Source of the DNA: Aliivibrio sp. EL58
Lineage (GTDB): Bacteria > Pseudomonadota > Gammaproteobacteria > Enterobacterales > Vibrionaceae
Direction: 5' to 3'
Assembly (NCBI RefSeq): GCF_900312675.1
Contig: NZ_OMPC01000004.1
Coordinates: 9,218-73,217 of the forward strand
Length of the DNA stretch: 64,000 nucleotides
How positions within the stretch are numbered: position 1 is the first letter of the stretch; each line of letters starts with the position of its first letter. The notes beneath the pieces are model-generated. The model was not told the origin of the DNA, ran no database searches, and saw nothing but the letters and a program-made list of their open reading frames with translations. Made by a program: the position numbers and the translations under genes. Shown here one piece after another: positions 741-8,160 of this stretch.

Positions 741-1025
741 ATGGAAAATAACTATCCTACAAATATGGCTTTTTCGTATTCAGTAAAGCCTTTACCATCA
801 GCTGCTCCAAGCAAAGAGATTGAAGAAGAACTTGGTGCTGATTATCCTAAATCATCAAAGCAGTTGATCTGCCATGATGAGGTTTTAGATATGTTTTGCC
901 TCACCAGTAAAGCAACTGTATATATGTGGCGTAAGAACCGAGGCTTTCCAGCACCAGTGACAAGAATGCCACTTAGATGGTTACGTTCTGCTGTTGAAGA
1001 GTGGAAATTGAAGATTGGTAGTTAA
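741..1025 (+). CDS. AlpA-family (excisionase-like) regulator
   Basis: The 94-residue protein ends in a compact winged-helix of the AlpA/MerR-like type: ICHDEVLDMFCLTSKATVYM, then WRKNRGFPAPV and a RWLRSAVEEW tail, matching the family order recognition helix, FPxPV wing, W-x-S-x-V-x-x-W. The first 40 residues are a poorly conserved extension. AAGGG eight bases before the ATG gives a good ribosome binding site. AlpA proteins activate integrase genes or act as recombination directionality factors in P4-like elements; an integrase of that class lies at 3691-4842, so a role in excision is plausible. Bases 1026-1216 after it hold no gene and must contain the promoter of the cargo operon. Confidence 0.75.
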   Translation: MENNYPTNMAFSYSVKPLPSAAPSKEIEEELGADYPKSSKQLICHDEVLDMFCLTSKATVYMWRKNRGFPAPVTRMPLRWLRSAVEEWKLKIGS

Positions 1026-1216: not shown

Positions 1217-2137
1217 ATGATCGTAATGAGTAAACAGATTTTAATGATAACTAGCACATTTGATAAAACGTGTGATTATCTTATCAAAAAGTACCCTGAG
1301 ATTTTATTTTTCAGATTTAATATCGATGTATTTTCTGAATATAAAATCACTTGTGATACTGAAGGTTTTAAAATTGAGCATAATAATAATAAAATAACAT
1401 CATCTACTTGCCTATCTATCTATTTTAGAAAACCAACAATGGAAATTTTAGATGATAGATTTAATATTAAATACCATCAGTTCATACATAAAGAAGTTTA
1501 TTCCATTATAGAAGGAATTACTGAATCTTTTGAAGGAAAAGTCTTAACTCGCCCATCAATAATGAGGAAAGCCAATAATAAAATAGTACAAGCATCTCTC
1601 GTTAAAAAAGTCGGGTTTTCGCTTCCTAATATGGCAATTACAAATAATAATGAAATATTAAATAAATTCACCGTTACTAATGGAATTATTAAACCCGTAT
1701 CTGTTGGAGAAATAACCACTAACGATACAAAAGAATTTGTGCAAACAAATAAAATAAACCCCTCATTTAATACTGATTTATTTAAATTTAGTCCAGTATA
1801 TCTCCAAGATTATATAGAAAAGGATTATGAAGTTAGAGTAACTGTCATTGATAATAATTTTTTTCCTGTAAAAATAACATCTACTAATAATATCGACTGG
1901 CGAAAACCAAATAATACCGTTTCATACAGCATGTTTGATATACCTAACGAAATAAAAGAAAAGTGTTTAAATTACATGAAACTATGTAATATGCATTTTG
2001 GATGTTTTGATCTTTTAATAAAAGATAGTAATTGGTATTTCTTAGAAATGAATGCTAATGGACAATGGGCATGGTTAGAACTAGAAACTGGGTATGAAAT
2101 ATCACATGCTATTATTAACCACCTAACTGATGTATAA
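1217..2137 (+). CDS. ATP-grasp ligase, graspetide (omega-ester peptide) maturase, MvdD/TgnB type
   Basis: This 306-residue enzyme is predicted to form ester (or amide) links between Thr/Ser side chains and Asp/Glu side chains of a precursor peptide, using ATP. Landmarks of the MvdC/MvdD-like ATP-grasp family are in order: YFRKP at 69-73, IKPVS at 158-162 (ATP-binding Lys), LQDYIEKDYEVRV at 196-208, DWRKP at 227-231, D265, and EMNANGQWAWLE at 277-288 containing the metal ligands Glu277 and Asn279. Length fits the family. The start is uncertain: ATG at 1217 or 1226, neither with a clear Shine-Dalgarno. It is the first gene of a three-gene overlapping operon whose last gene encodes a matching repeat precursor. 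Base composition is much more AT-rich than the flanks, indicating recent acquisition. Confidence 0.88.
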   Translation: MIVMSKQILMITSTFDKTCDYLIKKYPEILFFRFNIDVFSEYKITCDTEGFKIEHNNNKITSSTCLSIYFRKPTMEILDDRFNIKYHQFIHKEVYSIIEGITESFEGKVLTRPSIMRKANNKIVQASLVKKVGFSLPNMAITNNNEILNKFTVTNGIIKPVSVGEITTNDTKEFVQTNKINPSFNTDLFKFSPVYLQDYIEKDYEVRVTVIDNNFFPVKITSTNNIDWRKPNNTVSYSMFDIPNEIKEKCLNYMKLCNMHFGCFDLLIKDSNWYFLEMNANGQWAWLELETGYEISHAIINHLTDV

Positions 2138-3212
2138 ATTTAAGGATCTAGATTTGCATAACCTTCCTTCTTTTCTATTAAAAATATTATTCATAACTAC
2201 CAAGTTATTTAATGTCATTCCTGTACTTCACATATCAAACGATAATAATTTTGGAACATTAGAATATAATACAAACTGGTATGAGTCTCTAAGACTATCT
2301 ATCTTAACCCTTCCTTTGGGACATACAAAACTTTATTTATTTACCGTATCAAAATACAAATTTAATTTTTTACACATAATAAAGTTAGAAAGTTTCACAA
2401 ATTTTATAACCGAAGAAAAAAAAGATGAATTGAAAACAAACTTTAGAAAACTAAAACAAAATGGTAATAAACCAGAATTAAGACTAGAATATGTAAAATA
2501 TAAATATGATGACGTTACAAATAGCATTAACATATTAAATAACAAAGTAAATAATTATGTTTCCATATCATTATTTTATGCAGGGCTATTCTCATACTTA
2601 GTTAGCATAACAATAACTTACTTTAATGGTGGCATTATAAGTTATTTATTACTATTCTTTTTATTAATGTCATTCATTCATCTTTTAAGTGGGTTAATCC
2701 TTATTTATAAATATCTACAAATTAAAAACACATTACGAAGCACATTTGCGTCAATAAAAAAATTACCAACACCATCTTTACTCGCTAATAATATTTATAT
2801 AGATTGGCAAGCAGCTAAGGATGAACAACACTTTTATGCTTCCTTAGTAAAAAACATAGAGAAAAGCTTTATGTTTAGTTTATCAATAAGTTTCTTACTA
2901 TATGTATTCATTACTATAAATCCATATGTTAATAATATAATAGATAACGAAATAGCTTCAAGAATTGATAATGAATTTATTTTAATAAATCCAGAAGGTA
3001 TGTTTTCACCTAATGAACTATCAAATTTGTCAAAAATACTAAGCCCTAATACTAATGTCTTATTCTTATTATCGAAATCAAACAAAGAAGGTGAAGATAC
3101 ACTCAAATTTGTAGTAACATCACTTAATCTATCAGATAATTACTCCGTCATTACAGTTAGTGATGACTTTGTTATTGGAGATACATTACTAGCAATAGTT
3201 AAGGAGCAATAG
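2130..3212 (+). CDS. Unrecognised membrane protein of the graspetide operon (three predicted helices)
   Basis: The 360-residue product has a cytoplasm-like N-terminal domain of about 140 residues, two closely spaced hydrophobic helices near residues 142-163 and 166-194, a loop of about 50 residues containing the aromatic/charged stretch IDWQAAKDEQHFYASL, a third helix near 246-269, and a soluble C-terminal domain of about 90 residues. No ABC ATPase, protease or transporter motif was found. It starts eight bases before the upstream stop and its TAG shares its last base with the GTG of the precursor gene, so all three genes are coupled. Export, self-protection or anchoring of the modified peptide are possible roles; none is shown by the sequence. 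Codon use is very AT-rich (14 G/C in the 60 bases 2161-2220). Confidence 0.7.
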   Translation: MYKFKDLDLHNLPSFLLKILFITTKLFNVIPVLHISNDNNFGTLEYNTNWYESLRLSILTLPLGHTKLYLFTVSKYKFNFLHIIKLESFTNFITEEKKDELKTNFRKLKQNGNKPELRLEYVKYKYDDVTNSINILNNKVNNYVSISLFYAGLFSYLVSITITYFNGGIISYLLLFFLLMSFIHLLSGLILIYKYLQIKNTLRSTFASIKKLPTPSLLANNIYIDWQAAKDEQHFYASLVKNIEKSFMFSLSISFLLYVFITINPYVNNIIDNEIASRIDNEFILINPEGMFSPNELSNLSKILSPNTNVLFLLSKSNKEGEDTLKFVVTSLNLSDNYSVITVSDDFVIGDTLLAIVKEQ

Positions 3213-3622
3213 TGAAACCATATATAATGAATTATAGTGAACAATTTGCAATTCAATCATGTAAAAAGTTAAGCTCAACAGCACAAACCTTCTCAATAGA
3301 AGGAACAGATCAAGATGAACTAATACTGGCTACCGATACAACACTATTAACTAGTACAATTGAATCTGTAGATTTTGATGAAATAAATATGCATATTTAT
3401 GACACAACAACCTTCACAAAAACTACAGAATCTGTTGATAATGATGAGATTCATTTAAGCTCAACACTCCAAACAAATACCATAGAAACAAATGATAATG
3501 ATTACGTTCATTTTGACACGACTGCTCTTACCGAAACTACGGAGCCAACAGATGACGATTTCATCTATGCAGAGCTAGCATCTACACTTAAAATAAGTAA
3601 TTCTCTTTACCACAATAGATAA
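3212..3622 (+). CDS. Graspetide precursor with five thuringinin-type core motifs
   Basis: The 136-residue product begins with a short leader (residues 1-22, MKPYIMNYSEQF...) and then carries five copies of TxxTxxxExxDxD, at residues 23-35, 44-56, 66-78, 85-97 and 104-116. Spacing is 21, 22, 19 and 19 residues, with a hydrophobic residue usually two positions after the last Asp. This is the core motif reported for thuringinin, where two Thr per copy are esterified to acidic residues to give bicyclic units. The GTG start is preceded by AAGGAG at seven bases, better than the ATG at 3227. Its position directly after an ATP-grasp maturase supports a substrate role. There is no signal peptide and no obvious cleavage site. 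An acidic Thr-rich structural protein is the weaker alternative. Confidence 0.85.
   Translation: MKPYIMNYSEQFAIQSCKKLSSTAQTFSIEGTDQDELILATDTTLLTSTIESVDFDEINMHIYDTTTFTKTTESVDNDEIHLSSTLQTNTIETNDNDYVHFDTTALTETTEPTDDDFIYAELASTLKISNSLYHNR
3278..3559 (+). repeat. Five-copy core-peptide repeat (TxxTxxxExxDxD)
   Basis: Coding repeat inside the precursor gene. All five copies keep both Thr, the Glu and the two Asp, while the intervening positions vary, so the pattern is held at protein level rather than being a recent DNA duplication. Many extra Thr/Ser and Glu/Asp lie between copies, for example at the residue after the last Asp, which is Glu in copies 1-3 and aromatic in copies 4-5. Confidence 0.85.
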
Positions 3623-3690: not shown

Positions 3691-4842
3691 TCATAGATCC
3701 AGTCTCTCCGCATAACACTCATAAGCCTTTAACTGCTCATCTAACCAATCATGCTTATTGTATACGGATAAAACTCCTCCTAATTCATGGCCTAGCATCT
3801 TCTCCACCACATGCGGCATAACACCAAGCTCTGAAGCGCCTGTTGATAACGAACGTCTAAAGTCATGCGTTCGCCAATACTCAAGTTTTAACGTTGCTCG
3901 TAAACGACGAATATATTTGTTCGCGGCGGATATGGTTATTGGTGTATTCAAATCAAAGCCAGGGAACAACACATCGTCATACGTTGCCATTACTCGTTCT
4001 AGTATTGATCTCACTTTGGTTGGTATTGGGCGACGGATCGGCTTACCTGTTTTACTTAGCTCTTTAGGTACGGTCCAAATCCCTCTTTCCATATCAAAAT
4101 GGCTTCTTCTTGCTAATCGCAGTTCTGAAAGTCGATTACCCCATAACATAGTCAGCTGGTGCAGCGTCTTATTGGCAGTACTTGCTTGCGTCCGTTCAAT
4201 GGCTACCCAAATTTCTCTGAGTTCATCCCACGTTGGCACTCTTGTTCCTACTTCTGATGGCGTACCTACATGGCGCTGATGTAATCGCTCGAAGTTTGTA
4301 TTATCAATTAAGAATTTATGTTTGCAGTAATTTAGACAAGCTCGCATCTTGGCAAAGGTTGAATTGGCCATTTTAGGATTCTTCTCTGCGATTTTATCTA
4401 ACCATACCATCCACTCTCGCGCTGTTATGGTTTCTACATTCATTTCAGGGAACGCATCATAGAAGTAGTTTTTGGCTACAGACACATACAGCTCAATTGT
4501 TCCTTTCTTTAAATGCTTTACGTGATTATCAAACCAATAATCTAGGCACTGATTTAAAGTTACAAATTCTGTCTCACCTGTGAGCGCTATTTCTGGGTTT
4601 CTGCCCTGCTCTCTTAACTCGATCATCTCATGGTGAATGCGTCGCGCTTCTTTAATGCTGATGTTTGGGTAACGTCCAATTCTTATTCTTAGGTTTTTCT
4701 TATTGAATCGGCATCGATACTGAAAAGTTATCTTCCCTTTTGGGGTTATACGCGCCACCAAGCCTTCACCATCACTGAGTTCTGGCGTTCCTGTGTAGTC
4801 TTGCTTATGAATGGCTTTCAATTGCTTGTCTAAAATCGCCAT
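3691..4842 (-). CDS. Tyrosine recombinase, P4-type integrase
   Basis: The 383-residue enzyme should catalyse integration and excision of the element. An N-terminal arm-binding domain (LSDGEGLVARITPKGKITFQ, residues about 22-60; DUF4102 type) is followed by a SAM-like core-binding domain (about 95-195) and the catalytic domain. The tetrad is complete: Arg237 in GNRLSEL, His326 and Arg329 in HDFRR, His352 in LGHE, and the nucleophile Tyr361 in VYNKHDW. Length is typical. It follows a small Arc-like gene by nine bases, and both are read away from the operator array at 5042-5090, so control by ribbon-helix-helix proteins is likely. Intact catalytic residues suggest the element may still be mobile. 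Confidence 0.93.
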   Translation of the reverse strand: MAILDKQLKAIHKQDYTGTPELSDGEGLVARITPKGKITFQYRCRFNKKNLRIRIGRYPNISIKEARRIHHEMIELREQGRNPEIALTGETEFVTLNQCLDYWFDNHVKHLKKGTIELYVSVAKNYFYDAFPEMNVETITAREWMVWLDKIAEKNPKMANSTFAKMRACLNYCKHKFLIDNTNFERLHQRHVGTPSEVGTRVPTWDELREIWVAIERTQASTANKTLHQLTMLWGNRLSELRLARRSHFDMERGIWTVPKELSKTGKPIRRPIPTKVRSILERVMATYDDVLFPGFDLNTPITISAANKYIRRLRATLKLEYWRTHDFRRSLSTGASELGVMPHVVEKMLGHELGGVLSVYNKHDWLDEQLKAYECYAERLDL

Positions 4843-4851
4843 GTTCTTGCC

Positions 4852-5010
4852 CTAAATTGATTGCTTGGTAAGTGACTGCGTTAGTCGATAGATGATTTCT
4901 GCATTCAATGAGCGTTGTGATTCTGCTGCTTTTCCTTTTAGCTCTGCTTTTAAGTCATCCGATAATCTTAATCCGTATGGATTCGGTCTTTTTGCTGTCT
5001 TTTGATTCAT
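4852..5010 (-). CDS. 52-residue Arc-type ribbon-helix-helix protein
   Basis: A short frame, ATG at 5010 to TAG at 4852, encodes MNQKTAKRPNPYGLRLSDDL followed by KAELKGKAAESQRSLNAEII and YRLTQSLTKQSI. The strand (PYGLRLS), helix A (DDLKAELKGKAAES), turn and helix B (SLNAEIIYRLTQSL) match the Arc/MetJ fold over the whole length. It lies nine bases upstream of the integrase start, in the same direction, and opposite the second RHH gene at 5122. It probably binds the boxes at 5042-5090 and controls the integrase operon; it may also act as an accessory factor in recombination. Confidence 0.8.
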   Translation of the reverse strand: MNQKTAKRPNPYGLRLSDDLKAELKGKAAESQRSLNAEIIYRLTQSLTKQSI

Positions 5011-5041
5011 GGCTCCGCCCCAATCTTTAACTTGATTTCAA

Positions 5042-5090
5042 ATGGTATCCATTTGGCTACCATTGAATTATGGTAGCAATTGGCTACCAT
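5042..5090. promoter_or_regulatory. Four-box operator array between divergent RHH genes
   Basis: The 111-base divergent region holds four copies of an eight-base box in alternating orientation: ATGGTATC (5042-5049), GCTACCAT (5056-5063), ATGGTAGC (5070-5077) and GCTACCAT (5083-5090). Start-to-start distances are 14, 14 and 13 bases. Adjacent boxes form inverted repeats with five- or six-base spacers, the layout expected for cooperative binding of ribbon-helix-helix dimers. Both flanking genes encode RHH proteins, so autoregulation is the natural reading. Confidence 0.75.
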
Positions 5091-5121
5091 TGTCAAATTG
5101 TTCTATAAATTGGGTTAAATC

Positions 5122-5544
5122 ATGACGGCAAGACCACCACAGATTAATGTTCGTGTCCCTACTGAACTTAAAGATCAAATTCATAAAGCTGCAGAACTTA
5201 ATGGCCGCTCGGTTAACTCTGAGATTGTGAACCGCTTAGAGCAGAGTTTGATCCTGCATAGCGAGCCTGAAAGGTTAATTACTGCACAGCAAGCAAAGTT
5301 AATGGCTTTGCAGGCACAGCAGCATTTATTTGAAAATTTAAAAATTCGTTCGTTTACCGCTATTAATGATGCAATAAAGCTTGGTAAACTAAACACTGTG
5401 ATTGATATCTCATATCTTGAAATAGAAGATGAAACAGACCAAGCAGTCTATGCTTTAGTACAACCATTACGCCAATTGCTAATTGAGCTGGGCTATGTGG
5501 TTAGTGAATTAAATTCGGACAGTATTTTCGTTGAATTTAAGTGA
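5122..5544 (+). CDS. Arc-family ribbon-helix-helix DNA-binding protein with C-terminal extension
   Basis: Residues 1-45 of 140 are a ribbon-helix-helix domain: strand QINVRVPTELKD, helix A, then GRSVNSEIVNRLEQSL, the usual N-S-E-I of Arc-like repressors. The remaining 95 residues begin with a helical Ala/Gln-rich stretch (ITAQQAKLMALQAQQHL) and end in a small alpha/beta segment of unknown role, perhaps oligomerisation. It is transcribed away from the integrase operon across the four-box operator and is the last gene of the element before the chromosomal sbcB gene. Likely the element's maintenance repressor. Confidence 0.75.
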   Translation: MTARPPQINVRVPTELKDQIHKAAELNGRSVNSEIVNRLEQSLILHSEPERLITAQQAKLMALQAQQHLFENLKIRSFTAINDAIKLGKLNTVIDISYLEIEDETDQAVYALVQPLRQLLIELGYVVSELNSDSIFVEFK

Positions 5545-5548
5545 TTTT

Positions 5549-5589
5549 TTGGACGCACTAAAAGTCAAAATTGGACACCGATTTGGACG
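5549..5589. repeat. Three TTGGAC repeats near the element edge
   Basis: TTGGACG (5549-5555), TTGGACA (5571-5577) and TTGGACG (5583-5589) lie in direct orientation, with starts 22 and 12 bases apart, in the gap between the last element gene and sbcB. Direct repeats beside an integrase-type element are often arm-type recombinase sites; this assignment is inference. The core attachment site itself cannot be defined because the left end is outside the window. The rest of 5590-5711 shows only an AT-rich promoter region for sbcB. Confidence 0.35.
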
Positions 5590-5711
5590 AAAGTGCGAAT
5601 ATTAAGCGCTATTTATCTATATATGGCACATTGAATAGATAGACTTTTAATACTTTAACTCCTTGTTTAATTAGGCATATTATATGAATACGATACTTTT
5701 GGAATATAGCC

Positions 5712-7136
5712 ATGAATAGTAGTAATGACCCGTCCTTCTTCTTCTTTGATTATGAAACATGGGGAACTAGCCCATCTCTCGATCGCCCATGCCAATTCGC
5801 AGGGGTTCGTACCGATGAAGATTTCAATATCATTGGTGAGCCATTAGTTATTTACTGCCGCCCTCCAATTGATTATTTACCTTCTCCTGAAGCCTGTTTA
5901 ATTACTGGCATCACGCCACAAACTGCGGTAAATAAAGGCCTGTCTGAGCCTGAGTTCATTACTCAAATCCATAACGAACTATCAAAACCAAATACCTGCT
6001 CGCTAGGCTATAACAACATTCGTTTTGATGATGAAGTTTCTCGCTATACCTTATATCGTAACTTCTTTGAACCGTATGGTTGGAGCTGGCAGAACGGTAA
6101 CTCACGTTGGGATCTACTTGATGTAATGCGTGCTGTTTATGCCCTACGTCCTGAAGGCATCGAATGGCCAAAAGACGAAGAAGGCAAGCCAACCTTTAGA
6201 TTAGAAAAGCTCTCTCAAGCAAACGGCATTGAACATGAAAATGCCCACGATGCGATGGCCGATGTTATTGCCACCATCGAGTTAGCCAAAGTCGTTAAGA
6301 AAGCACAACCAAAAATGTTTAACTACCTGCTTTCTATGCGTCATAAAAAGAAAGCGGCAACGTTAATCGATATTGTTGAAATGACACCGTTAATGCACGT
6401 GTCTGGTATGTTTGGCGTAGATAGAGGCAATATCAGTTGGATTGTGCCTGTTGCTTGGCACCCAACGAATAACAACGCTGTCATTACGATTGATTTAGCA
6501 TTAGACCCAAGAGTGTTCCTAGAATTAGATGCAGAGCAATTACATCAACGCATTTATACCAAACGTGCTGATCTTGCGCCTGATGAATTACCGGTTCCTG
6601 TAAAATTAGTACATTTAAACAAGTGCCCTATTCTTGCGCCTGCTAAAACATTGACGGCTGAGAATGCTGAAAACCTAAATGTAGACAGAGCGGCGTGTTT
6701 AAAGAATCTTAAAGTGATCCGTGATAATCCTGAGATCAGACAAAAGCTAATTGCGCTTTACAGCATTGAGCCTAATTATGAGAAATCAACCAATGTAGAT
6801 ACCCTTCTATATGATGGTTTCTTCTCTCATGCTGATAAAACGACGATTGATATCATCCGTCAATCAACCCCTGAGCAGCTTATCGATTTTGAACCTAATG
6901 TTAGTGATCCTCGCATTAAGCCTTTATTGTTCCGCTACCGTGCGCGTAATTTCCCGCACACGCTAAACGAGACTGAGCAATTAAAGTGGCAAGCTCACTT
7001 ACAAGATTATTTCCAAACTCATTTGCCAGAATATGAATCAAGTTTTGAAAACCTATACCTTGAATCGGAAGGCAATGAAAAAAAGACTGCGATTCTTCGC
7101 GCCGTTTATAATTACGTACAACAGTTAGTATCATGA
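5712..7136 (+). CDS. sbcB: Exodeoxyribonuclease I
   Basis: ExoI degrades single-stranded DNA 3' to 5' and acts in mismatch repair and recombination in the cytoplasm. The 474-residue protein matches the E. coli enzyme (475) in length. The DEDDh exonuclease domain occupies the first ~200 residues: Asp13/Glu15 in FFDYETWG, NIRFDDE, and HDAMADVIAT with the last catalytic His/Asp. The SH3-like and C-terminal helical domains follow (RYRARNFPHTLNETEQLKW). Its TGA overlaps the ATG of the next gene (ATGA), coupling it to yohJ-yohK. Confidence 0.95.
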   Translation: MNSSNDPSFFFFDYETWGTSPSLDRPCQFAGVRTDEDFNIIGEPLVIYCRPPIDYLPSPEACLITGITPQTAVNKGLSEPEFITQIHNELSKPNTCSLGYNNIRFDDEVSRYTLYRNFFEPYGWSWQNGNSRWDLLDVMRAVYALRPEGIEWPKDEEGKPTFRLEKLSQANGIEHENAHDAMADVIATIELAKVVKKAQPKMFNYLLSMRHKKKAATLIDIVEMTPLMHVSGMFGVDRGNISWIVPVAWHPTNNNAVITIDLALDPRVFLELDAEQLHQRIYTKRADLAPDELPVPVKLVHLNKCPILAPAKTLTAENAENLNVDRAACLKNLKVIRDNPEIRQKLIALYSIEPNYEKSTNVDTLLYDGFFSHADKTTIDIIRQSTPEQLIDFEPNVSDPRIKPLLFRYRARNFPHTLNETEQLKWQAHLQDYFQTHLPEYESSFENLYLESEGNEKKTAILRAVYNYVQQLVS

Positions 7137-7483
7137 TTAAATATCTTTACTCTTTCGCATGGATTTTCGCCTCACTGTTTGCTGGAAACGGCATTCAATC
7201 TTGGCTAAATATTTCAGTACCCGGCAGTATTCTTGGAATGCTTATTTTATTCTCCGCTATGGTTATTGGTGTATGCAGGCCGGACTGGGCCGCGACAGGT
7301 TGCCAATTTTTCATGCGTAATATGTTAATTTTATTTATTCCGATCTCCGTTGGGTTAATGACGCATTTCGATTTGTTAATCAACAATGCGATTCCAATCA
7401 TTGTGAGTACCGCTGGTGGCTCATTATTGGTTTTAGTCTGCCTATCGTTATTTATTGATCGCCTTGATAGAGGAAATAAATAA
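7133..7483 (+). CDS. yohJ: CidA/LrgA-family holin-like membrane protein
   Basis: A 116-residue protein with four predicted transmembrane segments and the LrgA/CidA signature: GNGIQSWLNISVPGSILGML, then FMRNMLILFIPISVGLM and a C-terminal hydrophobic helix. In Enterobacteria YohJ and YohK sit immediately upstream of cdd, as here. The family is described as holin/antiholin-like or as pyruvate/murein-metabolism-linked transporters. It overlaps sbcB by four bases and yohK by one, so the two membrane proteins are probably made together. Confidence 0.88.
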   Translation: MIKYLYSFAWIFASLFAGNGIQSWLNISVPGSILGMLILFSAMVIGVCRPDWAATGCQFFMRNMLILFIPISVGLMTHFDLLINNAIPIIVSTAGGSLLVLVCLSLFIDRLDRGNK

Positions 7484-8160
7484 TGTGGGTTATTTTAACC
7501 GTTATTGTTTTTTATTCGGCTCGTTGGTTTGCGAAGCGTTTCCCTCACCCAATCAATAACCCATTATTATTGAGTGTTTGTATCGTTATTCCAATCTTGA
7601 TGGTCTTACAGGTGCCTTATGAAACCTATTACGCTGACAATGCGTTTTTAAGTTACTTGTTGCAACCTGCTGTCGTTGCTTTGGCTTACCCTTTATATGA
7701 GCAATTACCTCATATTCGTGAAAACTGGAAAATCATTCTGCTGGCGTGCTCTGTAGGCTCACTGTTTTCAATGCTGTCTGGTGCGTTCTTAGCAGTATGG
7801 ATGGGCGCAGATATGCAATTGGTTGCAAGTATATTACCAAAATCAGTTACCACACCGATTGCGATGGCTATCTCAAGTCAACTTGAAGGTGAAGCAGCGA
7901 TTGCGGCTATCTTGGTTTTATTAGCCGGTTTGATGGGCGCTATCTGTGCTTACCCTATCTATAATATGTTAGGAATTAAAAGCTCACTGGCAAGAGGGTT
8001 AACCATGGGGAATGTTTCTCATGCCCTTGGTACTGCCCAAGCGGCTGAGGTTGATTCTCAAGATGCGGCGTTTAGTTCTCTCGCTTTAGTTATCTGTGGG
8101 ATAATTACTTCATTGGTTGCCCCTCTTATTTACTCATTATTGGTATTTATAAAAGGGTAA
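7483..8160 (+). CDS. yohK: LrgB-family inner-membrane protein
   Basis: The 225-residue product has about six to eight hydrophobic segments and the LrgB hallmarks: VGSLFSMLSGAFLAVWMG, LPKSVTTPIAMAISSQLEG and GNVSHALGTAQAAEVD near the C terminus. It is the partner of the upstream LrgA-like protein, joined by a TAATG overlap. Proposed functions in the family include pyruvate uptake or control of autolysis. The stop is followed by the CRP-type control region of cdd. Confidence 0.88.
   Translation: MWVILTVIVFYSARWFAKRFPHPINNPLLLSVCIVIPILMVLQVPYETYYADNAFLSYLLQPAVVALAYPLYEQLPHIRENWKIILLACSVGSLFSMLSGAFLAVWMGADMQLVASILPKSVTTPIAMAISSQLEGEAAIAAILVLLAGLMGAICAYPIYNMLGIKSSLARGLTMGNVSHALGTAQAAEVDSQDAAFSSLALVICGIITSLVAPLIYSLLVFIKG

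Follow-up and report, generated by a model that had tools for sequence, protein, structure and literature searches.

Thuringinin-type graspetides belong to the omega-ester ribosomally synthesized and post-translationally modified peptides (RiPPs). Their loci (cluster 13 precursors in the main text of Makarova et al. 2022, PMC8939145) encode a single ATP-grasp ligase, a precursor with repeated Thr/Glu/Asp cores and a Phhx(1,2)h-type leader, and an uncharacterized membrane protein. These membrane proteins, 'cluster 18' of that paper, are described there as restricted to thuringinin loci, with 198 occurrences. Transport was guessed as their role because known transporters are mostly lacking at these loci; the main text of the paper contains neither 'defense' nor 'phage'. 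Here we describe an operon with all of these parts in a 64,000-nucleotide stretch of Aliivibrio sp. EL58 (contig NZ_OMPC01000004.1, positions 9,218 to 73,217; hereafter the window). It differs from the described type in its gene order, ligase-membrane protein-precursor, and in its prophage and defence-gene setting, while the membrane proteins of the two are likened by description only. That thuringinin-type clusters can include a membrane protein is already established (PMC8939145); the prophage slot and the defence setting are the addition made here, and we did not find them for graspetide operons in the literature searched, of which coverage was partial. We tentatively read the locus as a thuringinin-type graspetide operon that fills the cargo slot beside a prophage integrase and whose most likely predicted job, at a little less than an even chance, is anti-phage (superinfection exclusion or abortive infection) and not that of a secreted antibiotic.

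Two further groups of described systems bear on this comparison. The microviridin (MvdC-MvdD) and tgmB systems have their ligase family and fold in common with the window ligase, which differs from them in forming a separate clade, in being the only ligase and in having no adjoining methyltransferase or efflux genes. Anti-phage lanthipeptides of Actinomycetota are, in the part of the report consulted (PMC12360287), RiPP gene sets that lie near defence systems and act inside the cell; the window operon differs from them in chemistry and hosts. The same source places 8.8% of lanthipeptide clusters near defence systems, a survey figure that is not comparable with our small sample. A 2026 survey of 21,584 predicted graspetides mentions DNA helicases near its group 10, read there as self-resistance (PMC13097080, as far as covered here).

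The three genes occupy positions 1217-3622 on the + strand and overlap in series, in the coordinates and frames given by an earlier reading of this DNA made without database searches (the sequence-only reading). Its account of overlapping genes for an ATP-grasp protein, a membrane protein and a Thr/Asp/Glu repeat peptide is thereby borne out at the level of open reading frames (ORFs; Table 1). The guanine plus cytosine (G+C) content is 0.27 in the operon and 0.385 in the window. ARAGORN predicted no tRNA in the window.

Table 1 Coordinates, in the window, of the operon genes, the parts of the precursor and the two genes that border the slot (aa, amino acids)
Feature	Position	Strand	Remarks
Ligase ORF	1217..2137	+	306 aa; alternative in-frame ATG at 1226
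Membrane-protein ORF	2130..3212	+	360 aa; 8-base overlap with ligase ORF
Precursor ORF	3212..3622	+	136 aa; GTG start; AAGGAG just upstream; one base common with preceding stop codon
Leader MKPYIMNYS	3212..3238	+	8 of 9 residues invariant in 6 precursors and in 10
Core repeat 1 TAQTFSIEGTDQD	3278..3316	+	exact motif
Core repeat 2 TLLTSTIESVDFD	3341..3379	+	exact motif
Core repeat 3 TTFTKTTESVDND	3407..3445	+	exact motif
Core repeat 4 TLQTNTIETNDND	3464..3502	+	exact motif
Core repeat 5 TALTETTEPTDDD	3521..3559	+	exact motif
AlpA/Xis-like small helix-turn-helix gene, slot border	741..1025	+	Pfam HTH_17 0.0038, under cut-off
Tyrosine integrase, slot border	3691..4842	-	Phage_integrase 2.7e-19; Arm-DNA-bind_3 1.1e-15

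The ligase carries all three motifs (YFRKP, DWRKP and EMNANGQWAWLE) that had been read as MvdD/TgnB-type. RiPP maturases top its NCBIfam ranking (GRASP_SAV_5884 2.5e-50, MvdC 8.8e-38, MvdD 1.4e-34, grasp-with-spasm 2.4e-23), with rimK_fam far weaker (4.3e-14); all of these matches lie under the curated cut-offs, which for GRASP_SAV_5884 is 350 bits. Pfam returned the RimK ATP-grasp domain over its cut-off (7.3e-08) and the MvdD pre-ATP-grasp domain under its own (5.3e-05). Among solved structures, CdnC is closest (6.3e-24), followed by two chains titled 'ATP grasp ligase' and AMdnB. A genome search found one copy in the host, and identity to the ligases of five relatives is 47-62%. We built a ligase tree of 30 rows with an outgroup of the host RimK and a second RimK-profile relative, presumably a glutathione synthetase. 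Ligases of window-type operons, labelled ST1 below, form one clade (support 99/100) among the RiPP ligases, and the outgroup split is supported at 97/99; given the long branches, the branching order within the RiPP ligases is uncertain. The window ligase did not group with RimK or glutathione synthetase, the placement that the sequence-only reading had set against its own proposal. RimK-type identity was considered and rejected, as the tree sets the ST1 clade apart from the host RimK. Judged by its sequence, the ligase is a RiPP-maturase-type ATP-grasp enzyme of the graspetide type.

An adjacent precursor with a core of Thr and Asp/Glu, as expected of a graspetide, is present, with a net charge of -19. 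It contains five exact TxxTxxxExxDxD motifs, starting at residues 23, 44, 66, 85 and 104; we take this pattern, as did the sequence-only reading, to be the thuringinin core motif. When the precursor residues were shuffled 20,000 times, the maximum was one motif and 0/20,000 shuffles reached five, which upholds the thuringinin-type repeat precursor. Conservation follows the same elements. The first six precursors, once aligned, have 30 invariant columns, made up of eight in the leader, 20 at the T, T, E, D and D of four repeats, and two others. The start MKPYIMxYS is common to ten ST1 precursors, and the precursors of the nine relatives contain 3-6 exact motifs each. From residue 3, the leader (P-Y-I-M-N-Y) fits the Phhx(1,2)h motif of PMC8939145, and a leader motif of this type occurs in 18 of the 24 precursors tested.

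We found the ST1 operon in nine other loci, each with the order ligase-membrane protein-precursor and a homologous precursor at the same position. The order enzyme-membrane protein-precursor, which the sequence-only reading did not know from described clusters, is therefore genuine and kept in ten loci including the window, but the company of a membrane protein had already been published (PMC8939145). The other loci come from an uncultured Shewanella (L042), Marinomonas pollencensis (L043), Photobacterium sanguinicancri (L044), Aliivibrio sp. S4MY1 (L045), two genomes from another family of the order (L032, L083) and three IMG/VR contigs (L113, L114, L117), with the membrane gene of L113 reading as two ORFs. 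ST1 is rare: 3/329 Vibrionaceae genomes have it at >=59% identity, and 19 have any related ligase. Single-sequence ligase scans of genome contigs and viral contigs found no relative, unlike alignment queries, which gave four and two, respectively. Searched against plasmids, the window membrane protein and one relative's precursor gave no match. In a class-wide search of 369 genomes, the membrane profile recovered the window's own genome alone; an order-wide search of 394 genomes found one other.

The 360-residue membrane protein has hydrophobic segments near residues 144-192 and 246-264 by hydropathy. An AlphaFold2 model of low confidence (mean predicted local distance difference test score 50.1) places helices at 115-164, 169-202 and 215-278. 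Neither Pfam nor NCBIfam gave a family at E<=1.

Two other types of graspetide operon with a membrane protein, ST2 and ST3, offer a possible link to a known effector. In ST2 the precursor gene comes first, followed by those for the ligase and the membrane protein, and the cores are of the TKT..E.DD type; its hosts are Vibrio-family genomes, plasmids of Croceicoccus, Pseudomonas aeruginosa and Sinorhizobium, Leptospira phage LE1 and an unverified gut phage record. ST3, with a short precursor, occurs in two Vibrio-family genomes. ST2 ligases fall into more than one clade of the 30-row tree. Searched against 72,556 plasmid records, an ST2 membrane protein matched five, each match adjoining a graspetide-type ligase by coordinates. 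The membrane profiles of ST1 and of ST2/ST3 aligned over the transmembrane (TM) region (probability 69.5, E 4.2e-5); earlier, smaller alignments had given probabilities of 12.8 and 61.4. The ST2 membrane proteins may correspond to cluster 18. The PADLOC profile of PycTM weakly matches five of eight ST2/ST3 membrane proteins (best 3e-5) and some of the ST1 relatives' at only 0.009-0.027. PycTM, the effector of Pycsar (PycC + PycTM), disrupts membrane integrity in defence, according to the part of PMC11224242 consulted. The window operon is unlike Pycsar in that its membrane protein has no PycTM match and a direct profile comparison failed; Pfam and NCBIfam scans covering the operon and adjacent genes gave no pyrimidine cyclase.

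Several observations were made along the way on individual ST2-like loci. The Leptospira phage LE1 record (L118, KF114876.1) holds an ST2 precursor, ligase and TM protein, the precursor ORF being partly annotated. ST2-like ligases are also encoded on 21 IMG/VR contigs (L179-L197), five of which have the operon with a TM protein, one of the five divergent. Those contigs that have no TM protein downstream look mostly actinobacterial by composition and reading. In L088 (G162), the ST2 operon is adjoined by a 209-aa protein resembling a membrane effector of the SLATT type and a 1206-aa KAP-type nucleoside triphosphatase, both by reading. Transposase-like genes interrupt the ST2 ligase of L036 (G302), where a 173-aa remnant precedes an intact membrane-protein ORF.

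The operon had been described as cargo of an integrative element, flanked by an AlpA-type regulator and a tyrosine integrase. Mobile carriage stands, and from its gene content the element is a prophage, which is visible only from the contig sequence upstream of the window. There, endolysin-like, ApeA, DnaC-like, replication-type, Cro-like and S24/CI-type repressor genes (named by reading, except ApeA) run into the order repressor region, small phage genes, AlpA-like gene, graspetide operon and integrase. The integrase flank also held up; the AlpA-type label is weak, although related integrases have a small protein like this one on the corresponding side. ApeA of this prophage (605 aa, G000:C9:1943-3760, L082, upstream of the window) matches PADLOC at 7.1e-245. 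Beside it, a 257-aa ORF at G000:C9:1043-1816 has hydrophobic segments and no family match.

Comparison of related elements shows that cargo is exchanged at this prophage site. Integrase relatives at E<=1e-120 occur in 27/325 Vibrionaceae genomes. In one of the same genus (G004), the integrase is 99% identical and both flanks are conserved, the integrase side (window 3704-7643) at 89.8% and the AlpA-like side (691-1027) at 93.8%, and between them lie two other genes, one of them SIR2-like (3.2e-07). The slot of L159 holds Hachiman (HamA 3.3e-131 and HamB 5e-227, PADLOC). Other cargo includes a protein like a nuclease effector of the cyclic oligonucleotide-based antiphage signalling system (CBASS; L162, 3.9e-09) and a PDC-M54A-like protein (L165, 4.5e-33). 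Taking ten cargo proteins from eight relatives, five proteins in four loci match PADLOC at E<=1e-5.

We then compared the genes around the operons with those in control windows. The ST1 scan covered seven of the ten loci, including the window, and 62 proteins. The IMG/VR loci of ST1 (L113, L114, L117) were omitted, as was L118. Controls were random 19-kb windows from the same genomes, 19 of which were counted (L112 of 20 dropped). A simple rule that took the longest ORF first served in place of a gene finder. ORFs containing N, those of the operons and short ones were excluded, the lower length limit being 130 aa for ST1 and the first control set and 180 aa for ST2/ST3 and the second control set. 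Family listings comprise the best 25 of 145 families for ST1 and the best 25 of 80 for the first controls, and locus-level matches rest on single-protein scans. At least five of the seven ST1 loci have a defence match at E<=1e-60 within ~9.5 kb or less: BrxL/PglX (L085), GajA/GajB (L086), type IV restriction (L043), HamA/HamB and Cas8/5f (L042), and the ApeA of the window's own prophage.

Among the controls, eight windows (113 proteins) contained one mapped type I restriction-modification system (L099). Other strong matches there were RtcR and DpdF (L102, L094), plus mad2/mad5, which were not traced to loci; the RtcR and DpdF profiles match 2-13 proteins in each of four genomes and are therefore not specific. 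The other eleven windows (133 proteins) gave no match at 1e-60. One-sided Fisher tests of at least 5/7 loci against 1, 3 or 5 of 19 controls gave 0.0018, 0.0138 and 0.051, or 0.0055, 0.032 and 0.097 without the window's own locus. A defence-gene excess around ST1 operons is thus likely, from few loci and with controls unmatched for mobility. Around 11 ST2/ST3-like loci (99 proteins), 23 families matched at 1e-60, not all of which were traced to loci. They include Gabija, type II restriction-modification, AbiEi, Tmn and Cas13-ApeA; the Gabija match was confirmed at L084.

Two of these neighbourhoods have features of their own. At L084:4895-10656, the GajA and GajB genes stand beside a more distant ligase in an integrase-bearing stretch adjoining an smpB-like gene. 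Next to the Shewanella operon, Cas6f-, Cas7- and Cas8/5f-fusion-like genes (L042:8720-12895; Cas8/5f 3.3e-285, the rest by reading) are reminiscent of a type I-F3 CRISPR-associated transposon.

Taken together, slot, defence neighbours and prophage carriage favour a defence role over any other single reading. The operon sits where related elements can keep phage-defence genes, and the peptide may therefore serve immunity rather than secreted antibiosis. Known graspetide chemistry suggests how this could work. The ligase would bind the leader and, at the cost of ATP, link Thr with the side chains of Glu/Asp, and two esters per repeat, ten in all, would turn the precursor into a chain of stapled hairpins. 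The least certain step is that the stapled peptide may act inside the lysogen with the membrane protein, for which anti-phage lanthipeptides are the precedent. The membrane protein, in turn, might perturb the inner membrane once infection upsets its pairing with the peptide, or it might anchor the peptide where this blocks an incoming phage. A broader proposal, which we hold with somewhat less confidence, is that membrane-protein graspetide operons constitute a phage-defence family, in which a stapled repeat peptide and a PycTM-like effector would act in the cell, the operons being traded by prophages and defence islands and their subtypes differing in core motif and gene order.

Several results weigh against a defence role. 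The window membrane protein has no PADLOC family match at E<=10, and a three-sequence alignment of PycTM-like proteins from the order matched neither the ST1 nor the ST2/ST3 profile (probability 0.05 and 0.72). No TM protein lies downstream in 16 of the 21 ST2-like viral contigs, and five of the ten slot cargo proteins have no PADLOC match. As for neighbours, L083 has no defence gene and L030 just a weak helicase match (PbeA 4.6e-11) among the best 25 of 145 families. The control windows were random, not matched mobile islands, and mobile elements are rich in defence genes in any case; it is with every strong control match counted (up to 5/19) that the Fisher value rises to 0.051, and to 0.097 when the window's own locus is left out as well. 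Finally, the published guess for such membrane proteins is transport (PMC8939145, in the part consulted).

That guess leads to the main rival explanation, an ordinary prophage-borne graspetide cluster whose membrane protein is the exporter or a partner and whose peptide is secreted as a protease inhibitor or competition factor. The graspetides characterized so far are protease inhibitors (PMC8939145, same part), and the stretch from the AlpA-like gene to the integrase contains no gene for a peptidase or an ABC transporter, which also speaks for such an arrangement. However, the membrane protein, with three hydrophobic segments, matches no known transporter family in Pfam or NCBIfam, and export leaves the defence-gene neighbourhood and the slot unexplained; we consider it rather unlikely. 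Less probable still is an addiction module, similar to a toxin-antitoxin pair, that keeps the prophage by means of a toxic membrane protein restrained by the modified peptide, or the reverse. A small, translationally coupled operon on a mobile element would suit this, and L114 sits among genes that read as toxin-antitoxin pairs; yet a long repeat precursor with a leader is unlike the usual antitoxin, and Pfam, NCBIfam and PADLOC gave no match to a toxin family. The least probable account is a lysogenic-conversion trait with neither a defence nor a secretion role, such as one affecting the lysogen's surface or its control of proteases, which the prophage site and low G+C would suit as they would any acquired accessory genes, but which leaves the recurrent defence neighbours and the slot exchange with Hachiman and SIR2-like genes unexplained.

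Apart from inhibiting proteases, little is known of what graspetides do. Should these operons guard lysogens against phages, a class of cross-linked peptides would join bacterial immunity. The membrane proteins of thuringinin loci would then gain a testable role, and searching prophage slots could lead to more such peptides.

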